Shown here: positions 30 through 13,427 of the stretch, in pieces | Numbering within the stretch: position 1 is the first letter of the stretch | How the letters are laid out: each line of letters begins with the position of its first letter | Source: Gammaproteobacteria bacterium | GTDB taxonomy: Bacteria > Pseudomonadota > Gammaproteobacteria > Steroidobacterales > Steroidobacteraceae | Length of the DNA: 15,053 nt | Assembly: GCA_003156695.1 (NCBI GenBank) | Contig: PMHN01000193.1 | Coordinates: forward strand, 1-15,053 | Reading direction: 5' to 3' | Notes under the pieces: model-generated | Seen by the model: the letters and a program-made list of their open reading frames with translations, nothing else | The model's database searches: none | What the model was told of the DNA's origin: nothing | Made by a program: the position numbers and the translations under genes

Positions 30-69
30 GGAAACGGAGCTACTGTCCGCCGAAATCGCTTCCAGCGGG

Positions 70-89
70 CTCAACCGGTCGGTGCAACA
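70..89. repeat. IS30 terminal inverted repeat, transposase 3' side
   Basis: CTCAACCGGTCGGTGCAACA matches the reverse complement of 1244-1263 at 17 of 20 positions. The repeat also encodes the last transposase residues (VAPTG) and its TGA stop at 71-73, so coding and end sequence are merged. Confidence 0.8.
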
Positions 90-1219
90 TTTGAGTTGAG
101 TGTATCCGCGGGCGTGGCGAAGCCCAATGTCTTACGGGGTCTGCGGTTCAGCTCAAGCGCCACCCGGTCCAGAACGGCCTGAGAATGCACCGTCAGGTCT
201 GTGCTCTTCGGGAAGTACTGACGCAGCAGGCCGTTGGTATTCTCGTTGCTGCCGCGTTGCCAGGGGCTACTCGGATCGCAGAAGTACACCGCCACGTCGG
301 TGGCGAGAGTGAAGCGCTTGTGGTCGGCCAGCTCCACTCCTCGGTCCCAGGTCAGGGAGCGACGCAGCTGCCTGGGTAGTTTGCGCACTTGACGAGACAG
401 TGCGCTGACCACGCTGTGAGTGTCCTTGCCCGGCACCTTCACCAGCATCAGGTAGCGGGAACGCCGCTCGACCAAAGTGGCGATGTGTGAGTTCTTCGAG
501 CCGGCTAGCAGATCCCCTTCCCAATGACCTGGAACCGCTCGATCCTCCACTTCCGGTGGCCGTTCACTGATGCGTACCGCATCCATGATCTGGGAAGGTG
601 GCACCCGAGTACTGGGCGCCCGAGGCATACGCATGCGGTGCTTGCGGCGCAACTGCTTCACAAGCTCCCGTTTGAGCAGCCCCCGGGCCTGAATGAACAG
701 ACTGCGGTAAATCGTCTCCGGCGACACCCGCATACTGTCATCGCCGGCAAAGCACCTCGCAAGCCATCCGCTGATCTGCTCGGGTGACCAGCGTTGCTGC
801 AGCTTCTGCTGTACCAGCTCTCTTAGCCGTACGTTGCAGGCCAACCGATACGGCTTGGGGCGCCGGGCGCGATGCCACGCACGCTGCTCCGCGCGGCACG
901 CCCGGTAACCTTCTCGGCCACCGTTGCGGCGCAGTTCCCGACTGATGCTCGAAGGGGCACGCCGCAAAGCCCCAGCGATCTCACGCATCGTCGATCCGCT
1001 GGCAATGCCCCGGGAGATCTCCTCGCGCTCGTGCAAATGCAGCGAGCGGATATCGCGCACCCGAGGTCGCGGCGCAAAACCGCCTTGCCTACGCAGAACG
1101 CAAAAAATAGTGGATGGACTCCTACCCAGAGCCCGCCCGATCTCGCTCAGGCTCTCCCCTTGCTTCCAGCGCCGCCATATCTGCCCCTCAAGCTCAGGGG
1201 CTATCTCCCGTCCACTCAT
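71..1219 (-). CDS. IS30-family transposase
   Basis: This 382-residue DDE transposase, the usual IS30 length, would cut and rejoin the ends of its own element. Helix-turn-helix-like segments fall near residues 17-45 and 60-100, matching the family's N-terminal end-binding domain. The catalytic core shows D236 in GHWEGDLL, D292 in TWDRG and E326 in SNENTNG. The D292-E326 pair has the 33-residue spacing typical of IS30, and the FP of RQYFPK follows it. The ATG at 1219 has GGGAGGG at 1226-1232, six bases upstream, which fixes the start. The frame is unbroken and all catalytic residues are present, so the element is probably active or recently active. It may be co-transcribed from the pst operon, because no terminator lies between them. 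Confidence 0.95.
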
Positions 1220-1291: not shown

Positions 1292-2212
1292 CTAGCCGAA
1301 TCGCCCGGTGATGTAGTCCTCGGTGAGCCGGTGGCGCGGGTTGGTAAACACCCGATCGGTCTCGCCGACCTCGATGAGCTCGCCGAGGTGGAAGTACGCG
1401 GTGCGCTGCGAGACACGCGCGGCCTGCTGCATGGAGTGCGTGACGATAACGATCGCATAAGACTCGCGCAGTTCGTCGATGAGATCCTCGATGCGGGCGG
1501 TCGCGACCGGATCCAGCGCCGAGCACGGCTCGTCCATGAGGATGACCTCCGGCTGCACGGCGATGGTGCGCGCGATACACAGCCGCTGCTGCTGCCCGCC
1601 GGATAAGCCGGTGCCGGGGGTCGTCAGCCGGTCCTTCACCTCGTCCCACAGCCCCGCGCGCTGCAGGCTCGTGCACACGATGTCATCCAGCTGCGAGCGG
1701 CTGCGCGACATGCCATGGATGCGCGGCCCATAGGCCACGTTGTCGTAGATCGACTTCGGAAACGGGTTGGGCTTCTGGAACACCATGCCGATGCGCGCGC
1801 GCAGCTGCGCGGCGTCCTGGGATGGGTCCTGGATGTCCTGGCCGTCCAAGAGGATGGTGCCGCTGACGCGCGCACCCGCGATAGTGTCGTTCATACGATT
1901 CAGACAACGCAGGAACGTCGATTTACCGCACCCCGAAGGACCGATCATAGCCAGTACCTGGCGCCGGCCGACATCGAGGGTCACACCCTTCAGCGCCTCC
2001 TTGGCGCCGTAGAAGACGCTGACGTTGCGGCAGGAAAACACCGGGTCCACGACCGCGGGCTCGGGCACGGCCGGCGCAGGCACGCGGCCGCTCGGTTTCA
2101 GGTGACGCAGCACGGCCGCATCGGCGCTGCCGGGGCTCGCGCCCGGCCCCGCCGGCGTCGCGGCGGCGGCTGTTTGCGGATCGCGTGGGCCGGGTGTGCC
2201 TGACTCGCTCAT
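1292..2212 (-). CDS. pstB: Phosphate ABC transporter ATP-binding protein PstB (second, distal copy)
   Basis: This is the cytoplasmic ATPase that powers phosphate import through PstC/PstA. All ABC motifs are intact in the 306 residues: Walker [10 protein letters not shown] at 91-99, Q-loop in VFQKPNPFP around 146, signature LSGGQQQR at 203-210, Walker B VILMDE ending at E228, and switch H259. The C-terminus [10 protein letters not shown] is diagnostic of PstB. About 55 residues rich in Pro, Ala and Gly precede the usual PstB start (family length about 250-260). This is either a real disordered extension or a start called too early, since the ATG at 2212 has no clear ribosome binding site. It lies 11 bases after the upstream pstB and is last in the operon before the IS element. 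Confidence 0.95.
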
Positions 2213-2223
2213 GGGTCAGCCGC

Positions 2224-3024
2224 TCAACCGAAGCGCCCGGTGACGTAGTCGTCGGTGCGCCGGTTTTTGGGAGACGTGAAAATCTGTTCCGTGGGTCCGA
2301 TCTCCACCAGCTCCCCCAGGTACATGAAGGCGGTGAAGTTGGACACGCGTGCCGCCTGCTGCAGGTTGTGAGTGACGATGGCGATGCAGTAGCTCTCGCG
2401 CAGACTCTGCAGCGTCTCCTCTACCCGCAGGGTAGATATGGGATCAAGCGCCGCCGTCGGTTCGTCGAAGAGCAGCACCTCCGGACGCAGGGCCAGCGTG
2501 CGTGCAATGCACAGCCGCTGCTGCTGACCGCCCGAAAGACTGCGGCCGTCCTCGTGCAGCTTGTCCTTGACCTCCTCCCACATCGCCCCGGCGCGCAGCG
2601 CCTCCTCGACCCGGTCGGTGAGCTCGCTGCGGGAGATGCGCCGCGACAGCCGCAGCCCGAAAGCCACGTTGTCGAAAATCGACATGGGGAAGGGCGTGGC
2701 CTTCTGGAACACCATGCCAACACGGAATCGCAGACTCGCTGCATCCACGCTCGGCGCGAGGATGTCTTCGCCGTCGAGCAGCACGTCGCCGGTGGCGCGG
2801 TGCCCGGGGTACAGGGCGTAGATGCGGTTGAACACCCGCAGCAGAGTCGACTTGCCGCAACCGGACGGTCCGATGAACGCAGTAATGCGCCGGTCGGGCA
2901 GCGTGAGATTGACGTCCTTGAGCGCCTGCGTCTGGCCGTAATAGAAGTCCAGGTGGCGCACGTCGTACTTCACGACGGTGGCCGCGGGTGCGGCGGTGCC
3001 GGGCTGCAGCTCGGGGGCGTTCAT
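2224..3024 (-). CDS. pstB: Phosphate ABC transporter ATP-binding protein PstB (first, proximal copy)
   Basis: This 266-residue PstB ATPase has the standard family length. Walker [10 protein letters not shown] is at 52-60, the Q-loop Q107 in VFQKATPFP, signature LSGGQQQR at 163-170, Walker B VLLFDE ending at E188, and H219 in VTHN. The C-terminus DDYVTGRFG is PstB-like. The ATG overlaps the pstA stop as TGATG, and AGGGGGG at 3034-3040 lies nine bases upstream. This fixes the start and rules out a longer frame reaching back to 3120 inside pstA. The adjacent second PstB is clearly diverged, so the two may form a heterodimer, act alternately, or serve different conditions; the sequence does not decide. 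Confidence 0.96.
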
Positions 3025-3872
3025 CAGCGCTTGCCCCCCTGGGCCAGCGAGGACACCACCACGCGCGCGGCGACGCTCAGGACGAGGATGCTCAGCGTGA
3101 TCAGCAACGCTCCCGACCACGCCAGCTGTTGCCAGTTTGGATACGGACTCAGCGCGAATTGGAAGATCACCACCGGCAGGTTCGCCATCGGGGCGCCGAG
3201 GTTGCTGCTCCAGAACTGGTTGTTGAGCGCGGTGAACAAGAGCGGCGCCGTCTCGCCACTGATACGGGCGATGGCGAGCAGCAGTCCGGTGACGATGCCG
3301 CTGCGCGCCGCCGGGTAGATGACACTCGTGATGGTGCGCCAGGGGTAAGCGCCCATGGCGGTAGAGGCATCCTTCATACCCTGCGGCACGAGATTCAGCA
3401 TGTCCTCGGTGGTGCGCACGGTCACCGGGATGGCAATGATCGCCAGTGCCACGGCACCCGCGAGCGCCGAAAAGTGCCCCATGCGGACCACGAGCAGCTC
3501 GTATACGAAGAGCCCGATGATGATCGAGGGAGCGGACAGCAGCACATCGTTTACGAAGCGAACCACCATGGAGAGGCGCGAAGTGCGCCCGTACTCCGCC
3601 AGGTAAGTGCCGGCGAGCATCCCCACGGGTCCGCCGATGAGAATCCCGATGAGCGTCATGACGACGCTGCCGTAGATGGCATTCAGCAGCCCGCCGCTGC
3701 TGCCGGGCGGCGGCGTCATGGCGGTGAATACACTCAGCGACATGCCGCCGACCCCGTTCTTGATCAGTGTCCAGAGGATCGCACCGAGAAAGAACAGGCC
3801 GATGGCGGTCGCAAGGCCCGACAGGCTTAAGGCCAGCAGGTTATAGAACGTGCGTAGCGCGCGGCGGCTCAT
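3024..3872 (-). CDS. pstA: Phosphate ABC transporter permease PstA
   Basis: This inner-membrane permease forms the phosphate channel with PstC. The 282 residues are strongly hydrophobic with about six membrane segments: near 15-37, 66-90, 108-128, 134-152, 190-215 and 250-275. The cytoplasmic coupling (EAA) loop is [20 protein letters not shown] at 168-187, followed by [13 protein letters not shown], the conserved PstA segment contacting PstB. Its ATG overlaps the pstC stop by four bases (ATGA), and its own stop shares a base with the proximal pstB start, so the three are likely translationally coupled. No clear ribosome binding site precedes it, consistent with reinitiation from pstC. Confidence 0.96.
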
Positions 3873-6069: not shown

Positions 6070-6098
6070 ATGACAATGATATGACGGTCTCATGACAG
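6070..6098 (-). promoter_or_regulatory. PhoB box upstream of pstS (three direct repeats)
   Basis: On the minus strand the heptamers CTGTCAT (6092-6098), CCGTCAT (6081-6087) and TTGTCAT (6070-6076) recur with an exact 11-base period. This is the arrangement of the Pho box consensus, CTGTCAT-AWAW-CTGTCAY. Each adjacent pair matches 15 of 18 consensus positions. The site lies directly upstream of pstS, and phoB is encoded in the same window. Confidence 0.88.
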
Positions 6099-7870: not shown

Positions 7871-8617
7871 CTAGGCCGATGCCGGCGGCACTGCGGCGGC
7901 GGTACCGCCACGCAGCTCGCGCTCGACGTCGTCGAGAGAGGTGTGGCGGATGTCCTTGCCGTGCACCATGTAGATGACGTACTCGCTGATGTTCTTGGCG
8001 TGATCGCCGATACGCTCGAGCGAGCGCACCACCCACATCACGTCCAGCGCGCGGCGGATGGTGCGCGGGTCCTCCATCATGAAGGTGATGCTCTGGCGCT
8101 GGATCGCCTCGTATTCCTCGTCCACCAGGCGGTCCTGCCGCGCCACCCGCAGCGCGGACTCAACGTCCATGCGCGCAAACGCATCCAGCGCGTCGTGCAC
8201 CATTTCCGATACCACGCGGCCAAGATGCTTGATTTCGCGGTACTTGTCGGCGGGGCGCTCCATGGTCGCGAGTCTGGAGGCGATGTAGCCGATCTTCTCG
8301 CCCTCATCCCCGATGCGCTCCAGATCGGTGATGGTCTTGATGATCGCGACGATGACGCGCAGATCGCCGGCCGCCGGGGCGCGCGTCGCCAGGATCTTGC
8401 TGCAGTCCTCGTCGATGGCAACCTCCATGTTGTTCACCTGCTGGTCATCGAGTGCTACCGACTCCCCGAGCGAGCTGTCGCCCTCCACCAGCGCGGTAAT
8501 GGCTTTCTGCAGCTGTTGCTCGACGAACCCACCCATGCCGAGCACTTTGCTGCGCACGCGCTCGAGGTCCTCGTTGAACCGGCGCGAGATGTGGTGGCTG
8601 AGATCCGCGGTTTCCAT
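7871..8617 (-). CDS. phoU: Phosphate signalling protein PhoU
   Basis: PhoU connects the PstSCAB transporter with the PhoR kinase and keeps the Pho regulon off when phosphate is ample. The 248 residues form the usual two three-helix bundles, each carrying the metal-binding signature: DLERIGDEGEKI around 98-109 and SLERIGDHAKNI around 199-210. The last 15 residues are a loose Ala/Pro tail. The ATG at 8617 overlaps the glycosyltransferase stop as TGATG and has GGAGA at 8624-8628, which fixes the start over the longer open frame. In many gammaproteobacteria phoU follows pstB. Here it sits about 5.7 kb away, downstream of phoBR and two putative lipid-remodelling genes. Confidence 0.96.
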   Translation of the reverse strand: METADLSHHISRRFNEDLERVRSKVLGMGGFVEQQLQKAITALVEGDSSLGESVALDDQQVNNMEVAIDEDCSKILATRAPAAGDLRVIVAIIKTITDLERIGDEGEKIGYIASRLATMERPADKYREIKHLGRVVSEMVHDALDAFARMDVESALRVARQDRLVDEEYEAIQRQSITFMMEDPRTIRRALDVMWVVRSLERIGDHAKNISEYVIYMVHGKDIRHTSLDDVERELRGGTAAAVPPASA

Positions 8618-9714
8618 CAAACGTCTCCGGCGTCGCTCGTCTGTCTGCGCGCGACAACAGGCGCGATCATAGCGGAACTGCGGCGCACGGCCAGCGTGGC
8701 ACGCAGCGCCCGCGGGATCGGGGCCAGGCCCGCGAGGAACTGCGCGGTCGCCGCCTCCCAGCTGAAGGCGGCGGCGCGCCGCGCGCACACGGCTCGGTCG
8801 AGCCCGAGAGCGGACGTTATCGCGATCGCGAGGTCGGTGTGCAGGACACCGGTCACACCCTGCTCTATCACATCGATCGGGCCCGGCACCGGGAAGGCGG
8901 CCACCGGGACGCCGCACGCCAGGGCCTCGATCATGACGAGGCCGAAGGTGTCGGTCAGACTCGGAAATGCCAGCACATCTGCGCCGGCCAGCAGGCTCGC
9001 GAGCTCATCCCCGAAGCGGTAACCGGTAAAGAACGCCTGTGGGTAGCGCCGCGCCAGTGCGGCGCGCTGCGGACCATCGCCGATCATGACCTTGCTGCCC
9101 GGCAGCGGCAGGCCGAGGAATGCGTGCAGGTTCTTCTCGACCGCGAGCCTGCCGACACACGCGATGATGGGCCGCGGCAGGCCGGCAGGCTCAGGGTGGG
9201 GGGCGAGATTGCGAAAGCGCCTGAGGTCCACCCCGCGGCGCCAGCGGTGCAGGTGCGCAAAGCCCCGCTGGGCGAGCTGGCTCTCGAGACTGGCGCTGCT
9301 GACAAAAGTGCGCGCCGCGGCGCCATGAAAATGCCGCAACCACGCGTAGCTTGCCGCGAGGGGCAGCGGCCAGCGCGCGCGCAGGTATTCCGGGTAGCGG
9401 GTGTGGTACGAGGTGGTGAACGGCAGGCCGTGCGCCCGGCAGTAGCCGCGCACCGCAAGTCCCACCGGTCCCTCGGTGGCGACGTGAATCGCGTGTGGGC
9501 GCAACGCCTGCAGTTGCCGCGCCACGTGCGCGCCGGGCGCGACAGCGAGGCGGATTTCCGGATAGCTCGGACAGGCGATGCTGCGCAGCCCCTGCGGCGA
9601 GATGACGCGCACCTCGTAACCCTGCGCCATGAGCGTGTCCGCCGTTGCCTTGAGGGTGGTGACGACGCCGTTGGTCTGCGGCGCCCAGGCATCGCTTGCG
9701 AGCGCGATCCTCAC
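8617..9714 (-). CDS. GT4-family glycosyltransferase, candidate diacylglycerol glycosyltransferase
   Basis: This 365-residue GT-B fold enzyme resembles the MgtA/SqdX-like branch of family GT4. The N-terminal acceptor half shows the glycine loop NGVVTTL at 15-21 and SYHTRYPEYLRAR at 102-114. The C-terminal donor half shows VGRLAVEKN at 187-195, IGDGP at 211-215 and PSLTDTFGLVMIEALACGVPVAAFP at 251-275. The usual E-x7-E pair appears as D255-x7-E263. It starts with GTG, overlapping the phosphoesterase stop by four bases, and its stop overlaps phoU. From this context and family resemblance I infer that it glycosylates diacylglycerol to make a phosphorus-free membrane lipid. Donor sugar and acceptor cannot be read from the sequence. 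A role in glycan or phosphatidylinositol-type mannoside synthesis is the main alternative. Confidence 0.85.
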   Translation of the reverse strand: MRIALASDAWAPQTNGVVTTLKATADTLMAQGYEVRVISPQGLRSIACPSYPEIRLAVAPGAHVARQLQALRPHAIHVATEGPVGLAVRGYCRAHGLPFTTSYHTRYPEYLRARWPLPLAASYAWLRHFHGAAARTFVSSASLESQLAQRGFAHLHRWRRGVDLRRFRNLAPHPEPAGLPRPIIACVGRLAVEKNLHAFLGLPLPGSKVMIGDGPQRAALARRYPQAFFTGYRFGDELASLLAGADVLAFPSLTDTFGLVMIEALACGVPVAAFPVPGPIDVIEQGVTGVLHTDLAIAITSALGLDRAVCARRAAAFSWEAATAQFLAGLAPIPRALRATLAVRRSSAMIAPVVARRQTSDAGDV

Positions 9715-10499
9715 GCGGCGTCGGCGATAAGGCCGTCGGCGGGTTGGCTCAGGGATTGCGTGACGTTCGGCCAGCGCAGCAGCTTCAGCTCACCGCGACT
9801 GGTCTCGATGAGCGCCGAGCAGCTCTCCACCCAGTCGCCGGTGTTGGCATAGAGCGTGCCATCGATGTGGCACAGGTTGGCGCGGTGGATGTGGCCGCAC
9901 ACGACGCCATCGTAGCCGAAGCGCGCGGCGTGGCGGGCGGCAAGCTGCTCGAACTCACTGATGTAGCGCACGCTCGCGGTGAAACTTAGCTTCATGGGCT
10001 CGCACATCGCCCAGTACGGCTTGCCGAGCATCCGCCGCACGTTATTCACGCCGTGACTGACAGCGACGATCCCGCCGTGCAGCGTGTTGCCTAAGCGGTT
10101 GAGCCAGCGCGGACACGACCCAAGCCCGTCGAACTGGTCGCCGTGCAGCACCAGCAGGCGCGCGCCGCGCGCCGTACGATGAACCCATTCGCGGTGGACC
10201 TCGAACTGTCCCTGCAGCATGCCGGCGAGCACCGCGAGGCTGGCGTCGTGGTTGCCCGGGATGTAGATGAGGCGCGTGCCGGCGCGCTGACACGCCAGCA
10301 GCGTCCGCACGACCTGCGTGTGCTCCGCGGTCCAGAACGCGCGCCGCGCCAGGCTCAGGGCGTCGACGATGTCCCCGACCAGCACGATGCTCTGCGCCTC
10401 GATGCCATGCAGGAACTCGTTGAGTTCCCTGACGCGCGCGTGTCTGAACCCTAAGTGGATGTCTGAGAGAAACAGCGTGCGGACCGTGGGTTTGGCCAT
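9711..10499 (-). CDS. Metallophosphoesterase, PlcP-like (putative phospholipase C)
   Basis: This 262-residue calcineurin-type enzyme has every metal-site motif: D13-x-H15 (SDIHLG), G42-D43-x2-D46 (VGDIVD), GNHD at 82-85, HGD at 119-121 and GHIH at 202-205, then GDWVESCSALIE at 221-232. The GNHD and GDWVES motifs resemble the PlcP/UDP-2,3-diacylglucosamine pyrophosphatase-like proteins. True LpxH has GNRDFLLG and lacks GDWVES. Rhizobial PlcP is a PhoB-controlled phospholipase C that releases diacylglycerol from phospholipids under phosphate starvation. There is no signal peptide, so it is probably cytoplasmic or peripheral on the inner membrane. It is coupled to the next gene by a four-base overlap. 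Database tools may label it LpxH-like; I rate PlcP-like as more likely. Confidence 0.8.
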   Translation of the reverse strand: MAKPTVRTLFLSDIHLGFRHARVRELNEFLHGIEAQSIVLVGDIVDALSLARRAFWTAEHTQVVRTLLACQRAGTRLIYIPGNHDASLAVLAGMLQGQFEVHREWVHRTARGARLLVLHGDQFDGLGSCPRWLNRLGNTLHGGIVAVSHGVNNVRRMLGKPYWAMCEPMKLSFTASVRYISEFEQLAARHAARFGYDGVVCGHIHRANLCHIDGTLYANTGDWVESCSALIETSRGELKLLRWPNVTQSLSQPADGLIADAA

Positions 10500-10546
10500 C
10501 TGCGGCTCGTCCGAAAGCTCCTGGTTGGACGGCTTAAGGGTCGCCC

Positions 10547-10576
10547 GCCGCAGTGTCGATTCTGTGACAGTGCGGC
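10547..10576. promoter_or_regulatory. Hairpin and candidate PhoB site between phoR and the phosphoesterase gene
   Basis: An 11-bp inverted repeat with one mismatch (10547-10557 and 10566-10576) encloses an 8-base loop. Inside it, 10553-10570 on the minus strand reads CTGTCACAGAATCGACAC, which matches the Pho box consensus at 13 of 18 positions, with a nearly perfect first half (6 of 7). Two readings compete: a PhoB site for the phosphoesterase-glycosyltransferase-phoU genes, or a structured RNA element or terminator after phoR. T-rich sequence follows only on the plus strand, where no gene needs termination. Confidence 0.4.
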
Positions 10577-10614
10577 TAAATCTTTCTTACGAATTAGCAG
10601 GTTGCAGAGAAAAG

Positions 10615-11943
10615 TTAAGCCGTTGCAGCGCTTGCGGCCTGGGTGACGGGAAGAATGCGCGCCGGCGGGAAATGGCAGGTAAAGGTGCTGCCCTCCCCGA
10701 GGCGGCTTTGCACCTCGAGGGTGCCGCCATGCCGCTGCAGCACGTGCTTCACGATCGCGAGCCCGAGACCCGAGCCCCCGGTGGCGCGTGAGCGACCCGC
10801 ATCCACGCGGTAAAAGCGCTCGGTGAGGCGCGGGATGTGTTCGGGAGGAATGCCGATGCCCGTGTCACTGACGGCGAAATGACCGCCCTCCTTGTCCACC
10901 CACCAGCGCATCTCCAGCGAGCCCTCGCTGCCGGTGTACTTGGCGGCGTTGTCCACCAGGTTGGAAAACGCGGAAGTGATTTCGGATTCGCTTCCCAGGA
11001 GCCGTGCGGCGGAGTCGATCCGCACCCGCACGTCGCGCGGACGCACGCTCCTCGCCACGACATCCTTGCGCAACAGCCCGATGAGCGCCGCCACATCCAG
11101 CGCTTCGCCGACCACCGCTTCGTTGCCTTCCTCGAGCCGCGACAGCTCGATGAGATCACGGATGATGGCCGTCATGCGCACGGCCTGGCGGCGCATCTCC
11201 ATTACCGGTGCCTCAAGCCCCGGGTCCAGTGCCGGATCTGCGCCGAGCGTTTCGAGGTAGCCCGAAATCACGGTGAGCGGCGAGCGCAGCTCATGGGAGG
11301 CATTGGCGACGAAGTCGCGGCGCACCGCCTCCAGGCGCATCTGGCGCGACACATCGCTCACCAGCAGCAGCAGCTGACCGTCGCCGTAGGGGGCGACCTG
11401 CAGCGACAGGTATGAGTCCTCGCCGTTCATCGGGCGGATGACAACCGGCGTGGAGTAGTCGCTACCCGCGAGGTAACGCACGAACTCCGGCTCGCGCAAC
11501 AGGTTCTCGATGCGCATCCCCAGGTCCGCCGTGCGGCGCAGGTTCAGCAGCCGCGCGGCCATGCGGTTGAACCACATGATCTCGCGCTGCGCGTTGAGGA
11601 TGACGACGCCGTTGGGCAGTGCCGCGGTGGAGCGCTGCAGCTGGCGCATGAGTTGCACGAAGCGCTGTTTATGGAAGCGCTTACGGCGGTGCAGCCGCAC
11701 GATCTGCGCGATGATCTCGCCCCATACGCCGCCGACGTTGGGCGGGTCGGCGTAGTTACGGTGGCGCAGCCACCATTCCACGCGGAACAGGTTGGCCAGC
11801 ACCCACGCCAGGTGCAGCGTGAGCGCACACGCGAGTCCCGCCCACGGGTGCCGCCCCACCAGCCAGCCAGCGCCGGCGCCGACGAGTACGGTCCCGAGCA
11901 ATCGACCCGCCGCGAACCACCATGCCTGCGTCGCGGGTTGCAT
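10615..11943 (-). CDS. phoR: Phosphate regulon sensor histidine kinase PhoR
   Basis: PhoR is the membrane kinase that phosphorylates PhoB when phosphate is scarce. The 442 residues begin with two membrane segments (about 8-30 and 34-54), without a large periplasmic domain, as in other PhoR proteins that sense through Pst and PhoU. A charged region and a PAS-like domain follow (about 95-200, with LPNGVVILNAQREIMWFN). The dimerization domain has phospho-acceptor H217 in NASHELRSPLT. The ATPase domain shows NLVDNAAKYT at 328-337, DTGIGIPPEH at 360-369 and GGSGLGLAIVKH at 389-400. The gene starts 23 bases after phoB, with no clear terminator between, so the two form a phoBR operon. Confidence 0.96.
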   Translation of the reverse strand: MQPATQAWWFAAGRLLGTVLVGAGAGWLVGRHPWAGLACALTLHLAWVLANLFRVEWWLRHRNYADPPNVGGVWGEIIAQIVRLHRRKRFHKQRFVQLMRQLQRSTAALPNGVVILNAQREIMWFNRMAARLLNLRRTADLGMRIENLLREPEFVRYLAGSDYSTPVVIRPMNGEDSYLSLQVAPYGDGQLLLLVSDVSRQMRLEAVRRDFVANASHELRSPLTVISGYLETLGADPALDPGLEAPVMEMRRQAVRMTAIIRDLIELSRLEEGNEAVVGEALDVAALIGLLRKDVVARSVRPRDVRVRIDSAARLLGSESEITSAFSNLVDNAAKYTGSEGSLEMRWWVDKEGGHFAVSDTGIGIPPEHIPRLTERFYRVDAGRSRATGGSGLGLAIVKHVLQRHGGTLEVQSRLGEGSTFTCHFPPARILPVTQAASAATA

Positions 11944-11966: not shown

Positions 11967-12662
11967 TTACACCGTGCGCGCCGAAAAGCGGTAACCGGAG
12001 CCGCGCACGGTTTGGACAAAGCGATCGTACCCGAATTCCTCGAGCGCCTTGCGCAGGCGGCGAATGTGCACGTCAATGGTCCGCTCCTCCACGTACACGT
12101 TGCCGCCCCAGATGCGATCGAGCAGCTGATCGCGGGTGTAGACCCGCTCCGGATGCGTCATGAAGAATTCGAGCATGCGGTACTCGGTGGGCCCGAGCCC
12201 CACGGTCCGATCGCCCACCATGACGCGGTGACTTCCCTGGTCGAGAGCGAGTCCTTCGAACTCCAGAAGTTCCTCCACGGCGCCCGATCCGCTGCGGCGC
12301 AGGACCGCATGGATGCGCGCCAGCAATTCACGCGGCGAGAAGGGCTTGGTGATGTAGTCGTCAGCACCGCCTTCGAGACCCGCCACTTTGTCGCCTTCTT
12401 CGGAGCGCGCCGTCAATAGAATGATGGGCAGCTCACGCGTTTCGCGGTCGCGCTTGAGTGCCCGAGTGAGCTCAAGCCCGCTCATGTCGGGCAGCATCCA
12501 ATCCACCAGCATGAGATCCGGACGACGGTCGGCGAGCGCCGCGCGGGCGCCGCGACAGTCCTCCGCCTCGCGCACATCGAAGCCGGCGCGCTTGAGGCCG
12601 AAGGCGATCATCTCCCTGATCGGCCGCTCGTCCTCCACGATCAAAACCTGTTTCGAGCTCAT
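11967..12662 (-). CDS. phoB: Phosphate regulon response regulator PhoB
   Basis: PhoB is the OmpR-type activator that binds Pho boxes when phosphorylated by PhoR. From the ATG at 12662 it has 231 residues. The receiver domain shows the acidic pair E10/D11 in VLIVEDE, phospho-acceptor D54 in LVDWMLPD, T84 and K106 in [14 protein letters not shown]. The winged-helix domain (about 130-229) carries recognition helix [17 protein letters not shown] and ends VRGSGYRFS. An in-frame ATG at 12716 would add 18 residues that do not look like PhoB, so the shorter start, beginning [12 protein letters not shown], is chosen. Neither start has a good ribosome binding site. PhoB is the expected regulator of the triple box before pstS. 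Confidence 0.96.
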
Positions 12663-12737
12663 TCGTTGGCTACGTGCATGGGGGAATATTACAGGGGCAC
12701 TGTGTTGCAGATTCATGACGCGCAGGAAGAATCCATT

Positions 12738-13427
12738 TCAAATCCGTGACGTGCGTGTGACGTCGTCGCGCACATAGACCGGAAGCGCCTCCTGCGCCTC
12801 CACAGTGAGCCCCGCGAGCGCCGCAGGCCAGGCGAGGCGGGCAATTTCGATCGCGCGGGGCAAGAGCTCCTCCTGGACGCTGCCAAAACCGCCATTAAGG
12901 GAGATCTTGAGCTCCGGGTAGACGCGAAAGCCCTGCCCCGCCGCACCGATCGCCCCGCGCCAGGCCGCGGGCAGTTCGACTTCGCCGGCGCGACCGACGT
13001 TCTCGGGGCCTACGAGGCTCGCAAGTCCGTCCGTGCCGCGGTCGAAGCAGGCCCAGTAAACCTCCTGCATGCGCGCATCCTGGCACACGAGCACATGGTC
13101 AAGCTGGCGGACCTCATCGAATGCGCGCTGCGCAATTGCACTAAGGTCCGAAACCGGCACCACCGGCAGCTGCGCCGCGAAGGCGAGTCCCTGCGCGACG
13201 CTCGCCGCGAGGCGCACGCCGGTAAATGCACCCGGTCCGCGGCCAAATGCCAGCGCGCCCACCTCATTGAGCCCGATACCCGCTTCGGCCAGCACGGCAT
13301 CGATCATCGATAAAATATGCTCGGCGTGTCCGCGCTCGGTCAGAAGTTCGCGCGTGATCGCAGCGTCCGCCGACAATAGCGCGGTCGAACACGCCTGCGT
13401 CGCCGTGTCGAGGGCCAGAATCCTCAT
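12738..13427 (-). CDS. tsaB: tRNA threonylcarbamoyladenosine biosynthesis protein TsaB
   Basis: TsaB (formerly YeaZ) partners with TsaD and TsaE to attach threonylcarbamoyl to A37 of tRNAs that read ANN codons. It is an ASKHA-fold protein that scaffolds TsaD rather than catalysing the transfer. The 229 residues show the N-terminal strand ILALDTATQACSTAL and the family hallmark FGRGPGAFTGVRLA at 61-74, close to the standard GPGSFTGLR. Length agrees with the family. The ATG overlaps the yoaA stop by four bases (ATGA), so the pair is probably coupled. tsaB next to yoaA is also the Escherichia coli arrangement, which supports both calls. Its last codons may contain a weak PhoB site for the following phoB gene. 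Confidence 0.95.
   Translation of the reverse strand: MRILALDTATQACSTALLSADAAITRELLTERGHAEHILSMIDAVLAEAGIGLNEVGALAFGRGPGAFTGVRLAASVAQGLAFAAQLPVVPVSDLSAIAQRAFDEVRQLDHVLVCQDARMQEVYWACFDRGTDGLASLVGPENVGRAGEVELPAAWRGAIGAAGQGFRVYPELKISLNGGFGSVQEELLPRAIEIARLAWPAALAGLTVEAQEALPVYVRDDVTRTSRI
12746..12763 (-). promoter_or_regulatory. Weak candidate PhoB site upstream of phoB
   Basis: ACGTCAC occurs twice on the minus strand with the 11-base period of a Pho box (12757-12763 and 12746-12752). It lies inside the last codons of tsaB, 84 bases before the phoB ATG. Only about 10 of 18 consensus positions match. It may be chance, or an autoregulatory site; TAATAT at 12686-12691 could serve as a -10. Confidence 0.25.

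Follow-up and report, generated by a model that had tools for sequence, protein, structure and literature searches.

A predicted plcP-agt lipid-remodelling cassette with a Pho box of its own between phoR and phoU in Steroidobacteraceae

The stretch of DNA analysed here (the window) comprises 15,053 nucleotides of contig PMHN01000193.1 from a gammaproteobacterial assembly of the Steroidobacteraceae (GCA_003156695.1; 381 contigs, 3.05 Mb, completeness 77%). Between phoR and phoU it carries a gene for a metallophosphoesterase (P0001) and a gene for a GT4 glycosyltransferase (P0002), which we consider highly likely to form a PlcP-Agt lipid-remodelling cassette with its own PhoB-activated promoter. 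With such a cassette, a soil bacterium can very probably exchange the phosphorus-containing lipids of its membrane for sugar lipids. Upon phosphate starvation, PhoB would bind a Pho box at positions 10553-10570 and drive plcP-agt. Judging from their families, PlcP would split phospholipids into diacylglycerol and a phosphoalcohol. Agt would add glucose or glucuronic acid to the diacylglycerol, and the resulting glycolipid would take the place of the phospholipid. Translation of agt is probably coupled to that of plcP via a 4-base overlap, and phoU is probably made independently from its own start signals, with extra transcript presumably arriving by read-through whenever the Pho box drives transcription. 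The enzymes are of a known kind, and PlcP-Agt remodelling has been described in other Proteobacteria; what looks new is the wiring, namely a separate Pho box combined with placement between phoR and phoU.

The minus strand of the window encodes, in this order, tsaB, phoB, phoR, the metallophosphoesterase gene (plcP), the GT4 gene (agt), phoU, and dsbB. The original prediction had placed a PlcP-like and a GT4 gene between phoR and phoU with overlaps of 4 bases and 1 base, and both overlaps were confirmed: GTGA holds the end of plcP and the start of agt, and agt and phoU share one base within TGATG. The order phoB-phoR-plcP-agt-phoU recurs in 14 further loci of titled assemblies (L007-L018, L020, L021), with 66-86% identity to the window for plcP and 67-90% for agt, and it is thus neither due to chance nor to an assembly fault. 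Among these loci, L009 starts inside phoR and L011 stops in the first phoU codons; of the 15 titled loci nearest to the window, two (L008 and L016) are named Steroidobacteraceae. All 15 two-gene loci, the window counted, keep the 4-base plcP/agt overlap; the 1-base agt/phoU overlap is kept in 10 of the 14 loci measured. The phoR-plcP gap is 115 bases long in the window (62-192 across the 16 loci measured), so that phoR and the pair do not form a tight unit.

This gap holds the candidate Pho box. Training of an 18-base matrix was confined to 44 sites located upstream of phoB or pstS and selected with an E. coli-type consensus; for the window scan, it was repeated without the window and its closest relative (39 distinct sites). 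Of the five best positions on both strands, pstS and phoB account for two each and the phoR-plcP gap for one; the sixth scores 9.0. Among distinct gaps of 20-400 bases from 64 loci, a Pho box site (shuffle p <= 0.02, relatedness ignored) was found in 22 of 23 phoR-plcP gaps versus 4 of 27 phoR-phoU gaps lacking the pair, with median scores of 15.9 and -5.7, respectively. The sole agt-only gap (L174) also carries a strong site (19.6). Judged by these scores, the plcP-agt pair has its own Pho box and does not merely ride on phoBR, and the conserved sites make a strong sequence-level case for predicted regulation of the pair by PhoB. Pho boxes are likewise reported for plcP clusters in the text of an earlier paper (PMC4796936). 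The pair had originally been described as wired into the phosphate-sensing operon itself; its placement in the phosphate-sensing gene block stands, while mere riding on phoBR does not, since the pair has its own Pho box.

The start signals of phoU were compared in leaders with and without the pair. A Shine-Dalgarno match of at least 4 bases, under a loose criterion (any 4-base piece of TAAGGAGGTGA within 17 bases before the start region, spacing free), precedes phoU in 13 of 17 distinct agt-bearing leaders and in 27 of 30 agt-less ones; the corresponding count for agt is 6 of 23, with none in the window. A TATNAT element lies 10-75 bases before phoU, with or without the pair, in 54 of the 57 distinct leaders whose PhoU is at least 84.5% identical (shuffles give an expectation of 0.28; relatedness ignored). 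It also occurs in agt-less leaders of sister genera (L241, L242, L243, L245) and in 3 of 21 more distant leaders. In occupied loci the TATNAT stretch is the end of agt, and junction Agts are longer than other Agts (358-366 residues, n = 16, versus 321-360, n = 39, counted from the first aligned residue), with an extra tail that, by eye, cannot be aligned to theirs; we infer from this that agt extended over an older phoU leader. Coupling thus most likely runs from plcP to agt, as indicated chiefly by the invariant 4-base overlap, and phoU can start alone.

With phoU placed downstream of the plcP Pho box, PhoU could rise along with the lipid enzymes under starvation, and the cassette would then rewire phosphate signalling through a feedback between membrane phosphorus recycling and the sensor. 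Phosphate freed from phospholipids would in that case meet more PhoU, damping PhoR/PhoB again; where the pair is missing, phoU expression would depend solely on the phoU and phoB promoters. We regard this as rather unlikely; comparing close relatives that have or lack the cassette offers a way to learn how phosphate sensing is affected when phoU stands behind a Pho box. Less probable still is a single long phoB-phoR-plcP-agt-phoU transcript from the phoB promoter, with PhoU dependent on translation of the lipid genes. The genes are indeed all co-oriented, Pho boxes lie at phoB, the agt stop touches the phoU start in the 10 of 14 loci mentioned above, and a scan of positions 8500-10700 found no terminator-like site. 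Against it stand the Pho box inside the phoR-plcP gap of 62-192 bases, the Shine-Dalgarno match and conserved TATNAT of phoU, and the persistence of phoU where the pair is absent (28 of 52 readable junctions in the genus of the window have neither lipid gene). The two latter points leave the earlier proposal that PhoU translation may depend on the lipid genes unsupported. Re-initiation coupling at TGATG may still act in addition to the phoU signals.

As to the first enzyme, P0001 scored 21.6 and 27.1 bits against the LpxH models TIGR01854 and PRK05340, far from their cut-offs of 190.35 and 134. Six Metallophos matches were found in the genome of the window, one of which (L006:1492-2214) is a genuine LpxH with 265.3 and 286.2 bits on the same two models; the gene before it reads by eye like ppiB, which also precedes lpxH in E. 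coli. P0001 gave only stray matches to this LpxH (E 0.9 or worse). It is 43.7% identical over 238 residues to a Sinorhizobium meliloti homologue (locus L071), and 25.6% identical over 125 residues to E. coli LpxH. In a tree rooted on two LpxH sequences, all 18 junction PlcPs fell into a single clade (support 0.999) away from LpxH, at a distance of 2.6 to the L071 protein and 8.4 to E. coli LpxH. Metallophosphoesterases carry the ligand motifs D-x-H, GD..D, GNHD, H[GA][DN], and GHxH, and P0001 has this set, including GNHD; the GNRD of E. coli LpxH is absent. GNHD was present in 115 of 116 PlcP-like sequences and GNRD in none of them but in both LpxH, the tree and motif set leaving out tblastn matches with an internal stop or shorter than about 200 residues. 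A search of solved structures with P0001 returned no match. The L071 homologue sits near a LuxR-type gene and an acyl-homoserine lactone synthase gene, which we take to be sinR and sinI, neighbours of SMc00171 by locus numbering; L071 is therefore presumed to be the SMc00171 locus, its standing as a characterised PlcP depending in part on this presumption. SMc00171 is described as a phospholipase C belonging to the Pho regulon (PMC3596328).

By these sequence criteria, P0001 is PlcP-like and not an LpxH, with phospholipase C activity predicted. An LpxH identity was rejected on both cut-offs, the tree, the GNHD motif, and the separate LpxH at L006; in line with the original prediction, the phosphoesterase did not group with LpxH, and its genome has an LpxH of its own. 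Many homologues are publicly named "UDP-2,3-diacylglucosamine pyrophosphatase LpxH" or "diphosphatase". Since scores, tree, and motifs place these proteins apart from LpxH, such names are probably wrong, which points to a naming error that is frequent in public annotation of PlcP-like proteins.

The second enzyme was compared with GTcp of SAR11, for which the motifs GRVAxEKN and FPSxTDTFG and a His104-Asp256 dyad are described, and in which, according to the same text, an alanine change at any of nine donor-site residues nearly abolished activity (PMC8231724). P0002 keeps all nine donor-site residues and the dyad, these being the sites compared, with equal numbering up to H104 and numbering one lower thereafter: G16, G82, G85, and H104 are present, GRLAVEKN lies at 188 (V to L at one site), and FPSLTDTFG lies at 250, followed by LVMIE. 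The first motif, with V, L, I, or M accepted, was found in 51 of 55 GT4 proteins compared and the second in 48. Most GT4 genes that adjoin plcP elsewhere in the Alpha- and Gammaproteobacteria share 45-58% identity with P0002, some neighbouring glycosyltransferases reaching only 24-36%. The source name 1,2-diacylglycerol 3-alpha-glucosyltransferase/glucuronosyltransferase is borne by 6 of 120 homologues among the matches listed, and a solved-structure search with P0002 returned 24 distinct sequences of other GT-B enzymes. The motifs, donor-site residues, and dyad support P0002 as an Agt-type GT4 with predicted diacylglycerol glycosyltransferase activity, in agreement with its proposed role as the remodelling partner of the phosphoesterase, and the assignment of the pair to the PlcP-Agt pathway appears strong. 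That the phosphoesterase would instead be a second LpxH-like lipid A enzyme or an unrelated phosphodiesterase, and the GT4 would act on another acceptor (lipopolysaccharide, exopolysaccharide), could draw on the LpxH and diphosphatase names of many homologues, on the great breadth of GT4, and on curated NCBIfam matches of P0002 that are all under their cut-offs, but it is most improbable given the separate LpxH behind a ppiB-like gene as in E. coli, the motif and tree separation of PlcP from LpxH, the Pho box accompanying the pair, and the Agt residues retained in P0002.

The pair is an accessory element at the phoR-phoU junction. The 58 genomes of the genus offered 52 readable junctions, of which 20 carry plcP-agt, 2 plcP only (G160, G184), 1 agt only (G178), and 28 neither, the last one (G198) being cut by a contig end beside an agt fragment. 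An agt remnant is present at one of the 28 "neither" junctions (G193). In locus L158 the remnant is clear (28 residues, E 3e-9) and reaches upstream of the shared leader, such that the last ~28 codons and a Pho box remain before phoU; that of L159 (18 residues, E 7e-4) lies mostly within the leader and is suggestive only. This natural series at one site thus runs from both genes through plcP alone, agt alone, and a remnant to nothing. Five genomes of the genus that lack the junction pair (G054, G133, G172, G187, G194) carry, at another locus, a distinct plcP with 42-43% identity to that of the window and an agt match adjoining it, the G054 match having one internal stop. A PhoB-PhoR-PhoU tree was built from the 67 of 93 family loci passing a length and strand filter; its 62 distinct loci were 39 empty, 2 empty with possible remnants (L158 and L159, labelled by hand), 16 with both genes, 4 with plcP, and 1 with agt, and the empty locus L242 is sister to a plcP locus. 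With gains and losses drawn by eye on this tree, the simplest history would be the entry of plcP before the genus arose, the joining of agt, and several subsequent losses. In five loci of two other genera of the family (L102, L104, L096, L097, L101), plcP follows a gene for an OmpR-type response regulator that shares only 37-42% identity with the PhoB of the window and may be a further regulator of this pathway.

A survey of this gene order across genomes, as suggested with the original prediction, found the arrangement in this family only, as far as sampled. In the order sample, 5 of 296 genomes matched at E 1e-85 or better (that of the window included), all of its genus; a family search added three more genera matching at the E 1e-85 level, which were absent among the order-sample matches. 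In the class sample, 101 of 369 genomes had a PlcP relative at E 1e-45, none above 46% identity except the window's own. Forty class loci from 39 of the 100 other matching genomes were examined (the top 20 matches and 20 further down): three, all of one genus, had phoB-phoR-plcP-agt without phoU, and none of the 40 had phoU beside plcP. The phoR-plcP-agt-phoU sandwich therefore seems confined to this family within the sample, and PlcP-Agt remodelling is now predicted for a gammaproteobacterial group that is represented chiefly by metagenome assemblies. Among the other matches listed, three P. aeruginosa plasmid records (H20-H22, H31-H33) have plcP-like and glycosyltransferase genes side by side, the latter ~53% identical to the window's Agt. 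A plcP homologue adjoins phoU and pst genes in convergent orientation on two Bacteroidota-type contigs (L035, L022), apparently a separate association of plcP with phosphate genes, and two contigs titled Salinivenus and Bacteroidetes (L027, L051) each have two adjacent plcP-like matches in tandem.

Several observations weigh against a PhoB-driven cassette of coupled genes. At the promoter level, one of the 23 phoR-plcP gaps (L018) has no clear Pho box, and the four pair-less gaps with a match were L158, which retains the agt remnant, L165, L183, and L192. A consensus sigma-70 scan of positions 8500-10700 found no promoter, and the -10 of plcP is weak. The -35 matches of phoU are also weak, with 2-3 of 6 positions in 49 of 59 leaders and 4 in one; with the promoter scan empty as well, it is conservation by which the phoU -10-like element is identified. 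At the translation level, plcP has a Shine-Dalgarno match in just 10 of 25 distinct starts (3 bases only in the window), so that the missing match of agt says little about coupling by itself. Regarding the pathway, at least six family genomes carry plcP without agt at the junction (G160, G184, G005, G007, G043, and G001, the last being locus L062), and three other genera are represented among such loci (L112, L113, L114, and L062). Five of these genomes were searched for an Agt relative: one was found elsewhere in G184, G043, and G007 (53-58%), and none at E 1e-20 in G160 and G005, where plcP must consequently feed another lipid or none.

The coordinates of the features are collected in Table 1. 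The true start of phoB is probably near 12662, about 54 bases inside the listed open reading frame, because the Pho boxes overlap or closely precede its first codons (12662-12752). Beyond dsbB, the window continues with dapE on the plus strand and then, on the minus strand, pstS, pstC, pstA, and two pstB genes, the names of pstC, pstA, and pstB being assigned from sequence and order. The tandem duplication of pstB at the end of the pst operon (1292-3120), with phoU apart in the phoBR block, is also matched in relatives such as L009, L017, and L021, and L062 has a second phoU-like match (34%) behind the tandem pstB genes. An IS30-family transposase (71-1219; NCBIfam NF033563, 278.4 bits, cut-off 80) adjoins the second pstB at the window edge.

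Table 1. Positions of the genes and candidate signals in the window, with the evidence for each
Feature	Position	Strand	Evidence
phoU	7871..8617	-	TIGR02135, 234.7 bits (cut-off 130.25)
agt-like GT4 diacylglycerol glycosyltransferase, predicted (P0002, 365 residues; GTG start in GTGA overlap, Shine-Dalgarno match absent)	8617..9714	-	Pfam GT4 domains, GTcp/Agt motifs and residues, start context
GGAG, Shine-Dalgarno match of phoU inside agt	8625..8628	-	Shine-Dalgarno match scan
TATGAT, conserved -10-like element of phoU inside 3' end of agt	8666..8671	-	TATNAT conservation in leaders
plcP-like metallophosphoesterase (P0001, 262 residues), predicted intracellular phospholipase C	9711..10499	-	Pfam Metallophos, 41.3 bits (cut-off 21.5); GNHD/GHIH motifs; tree; LpxH scores far under cut-offs
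Weak -10-like GACCCT, 10 bases past Pho box	10537..10542	-	A-N-N-C-T near this distance in 22 of 23 relatives (by eye)
Pho box CTGTCACAGAATCGACAC upstream of plcP	10553..10570	-	Score 18.0, fourth best on both window strands; matrix trained without window; next site outside pstS, phoB, and plcP promoters 9.0
phoR	10615..11943	-	TIGR02966, 386.2 bits (cut-off 334.2)
phoB (listed open reading frame)	11967..12716	-	TIGR02154, 342.6 bits (cut-off 296.2), match from residue 21
Two Pho box matches upstream of phoB (12721-12704 and 12752-12735)	12704..12752	-	Scores 21.5 and 15.7
Overlapping Pho boxes upstream of pstS (6098-6081 and 6087-6070)	6070..6098	-	Scores 24.1 and 18.9

As anticipated in the original prediction, no description of plcP-agt between phoR and phoU was found in the open-licence full text of PubMed Central (PMC), a search that covers neither figures and supplements nor most subscription papers. 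The nearest known systems share parts of the arrangement. In the plcP-agt (type 2) context of SAR11 and Erythrobacter (PMC4796936) and of Methylosinus (PMC9239053), an agt-type GT4 gene directly follows plcP, as in the window; phoR or phoU neighbours are not described in the text of these sources, the main text of PMC4796936 containing no mention of phoU, whereas the cassette of the window lies between phoR and phoU, with the end of agt over the phoU start signals. Mutants of the Methylosinus genes are reported to lose the glucuronic acid lipid but not MGDG (PMC9239053). PA3219-PA3218 (PlcP-Agt1) of Pseudomonas aeruginosa is likewise a gammaproteobacterial plcP-agt operon with a Pho box, whose function was, according to the text, shown by mutants and, for the Agt1 transferase, also by enzyme assay; unlike the cassette of the window, it is presented there as a stand-alone operon outside any phoBR-phoU block (PMC8528852). 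The S. meliloti PlcP (SMc00171) belongs to the same PlcP-like group as P0001, at the 43.7% identity given above for the L071 gene, but has no annotated agt adjoining it in L071. In the three class loci of one genus (L201, L202, L205) and in one locus from another genus of the window's family (L103), the lipid pair follows phoR by ~160-680 bases on the same strand as phoBR; these loci differ from the window in having no phoU match in the stretch examined.

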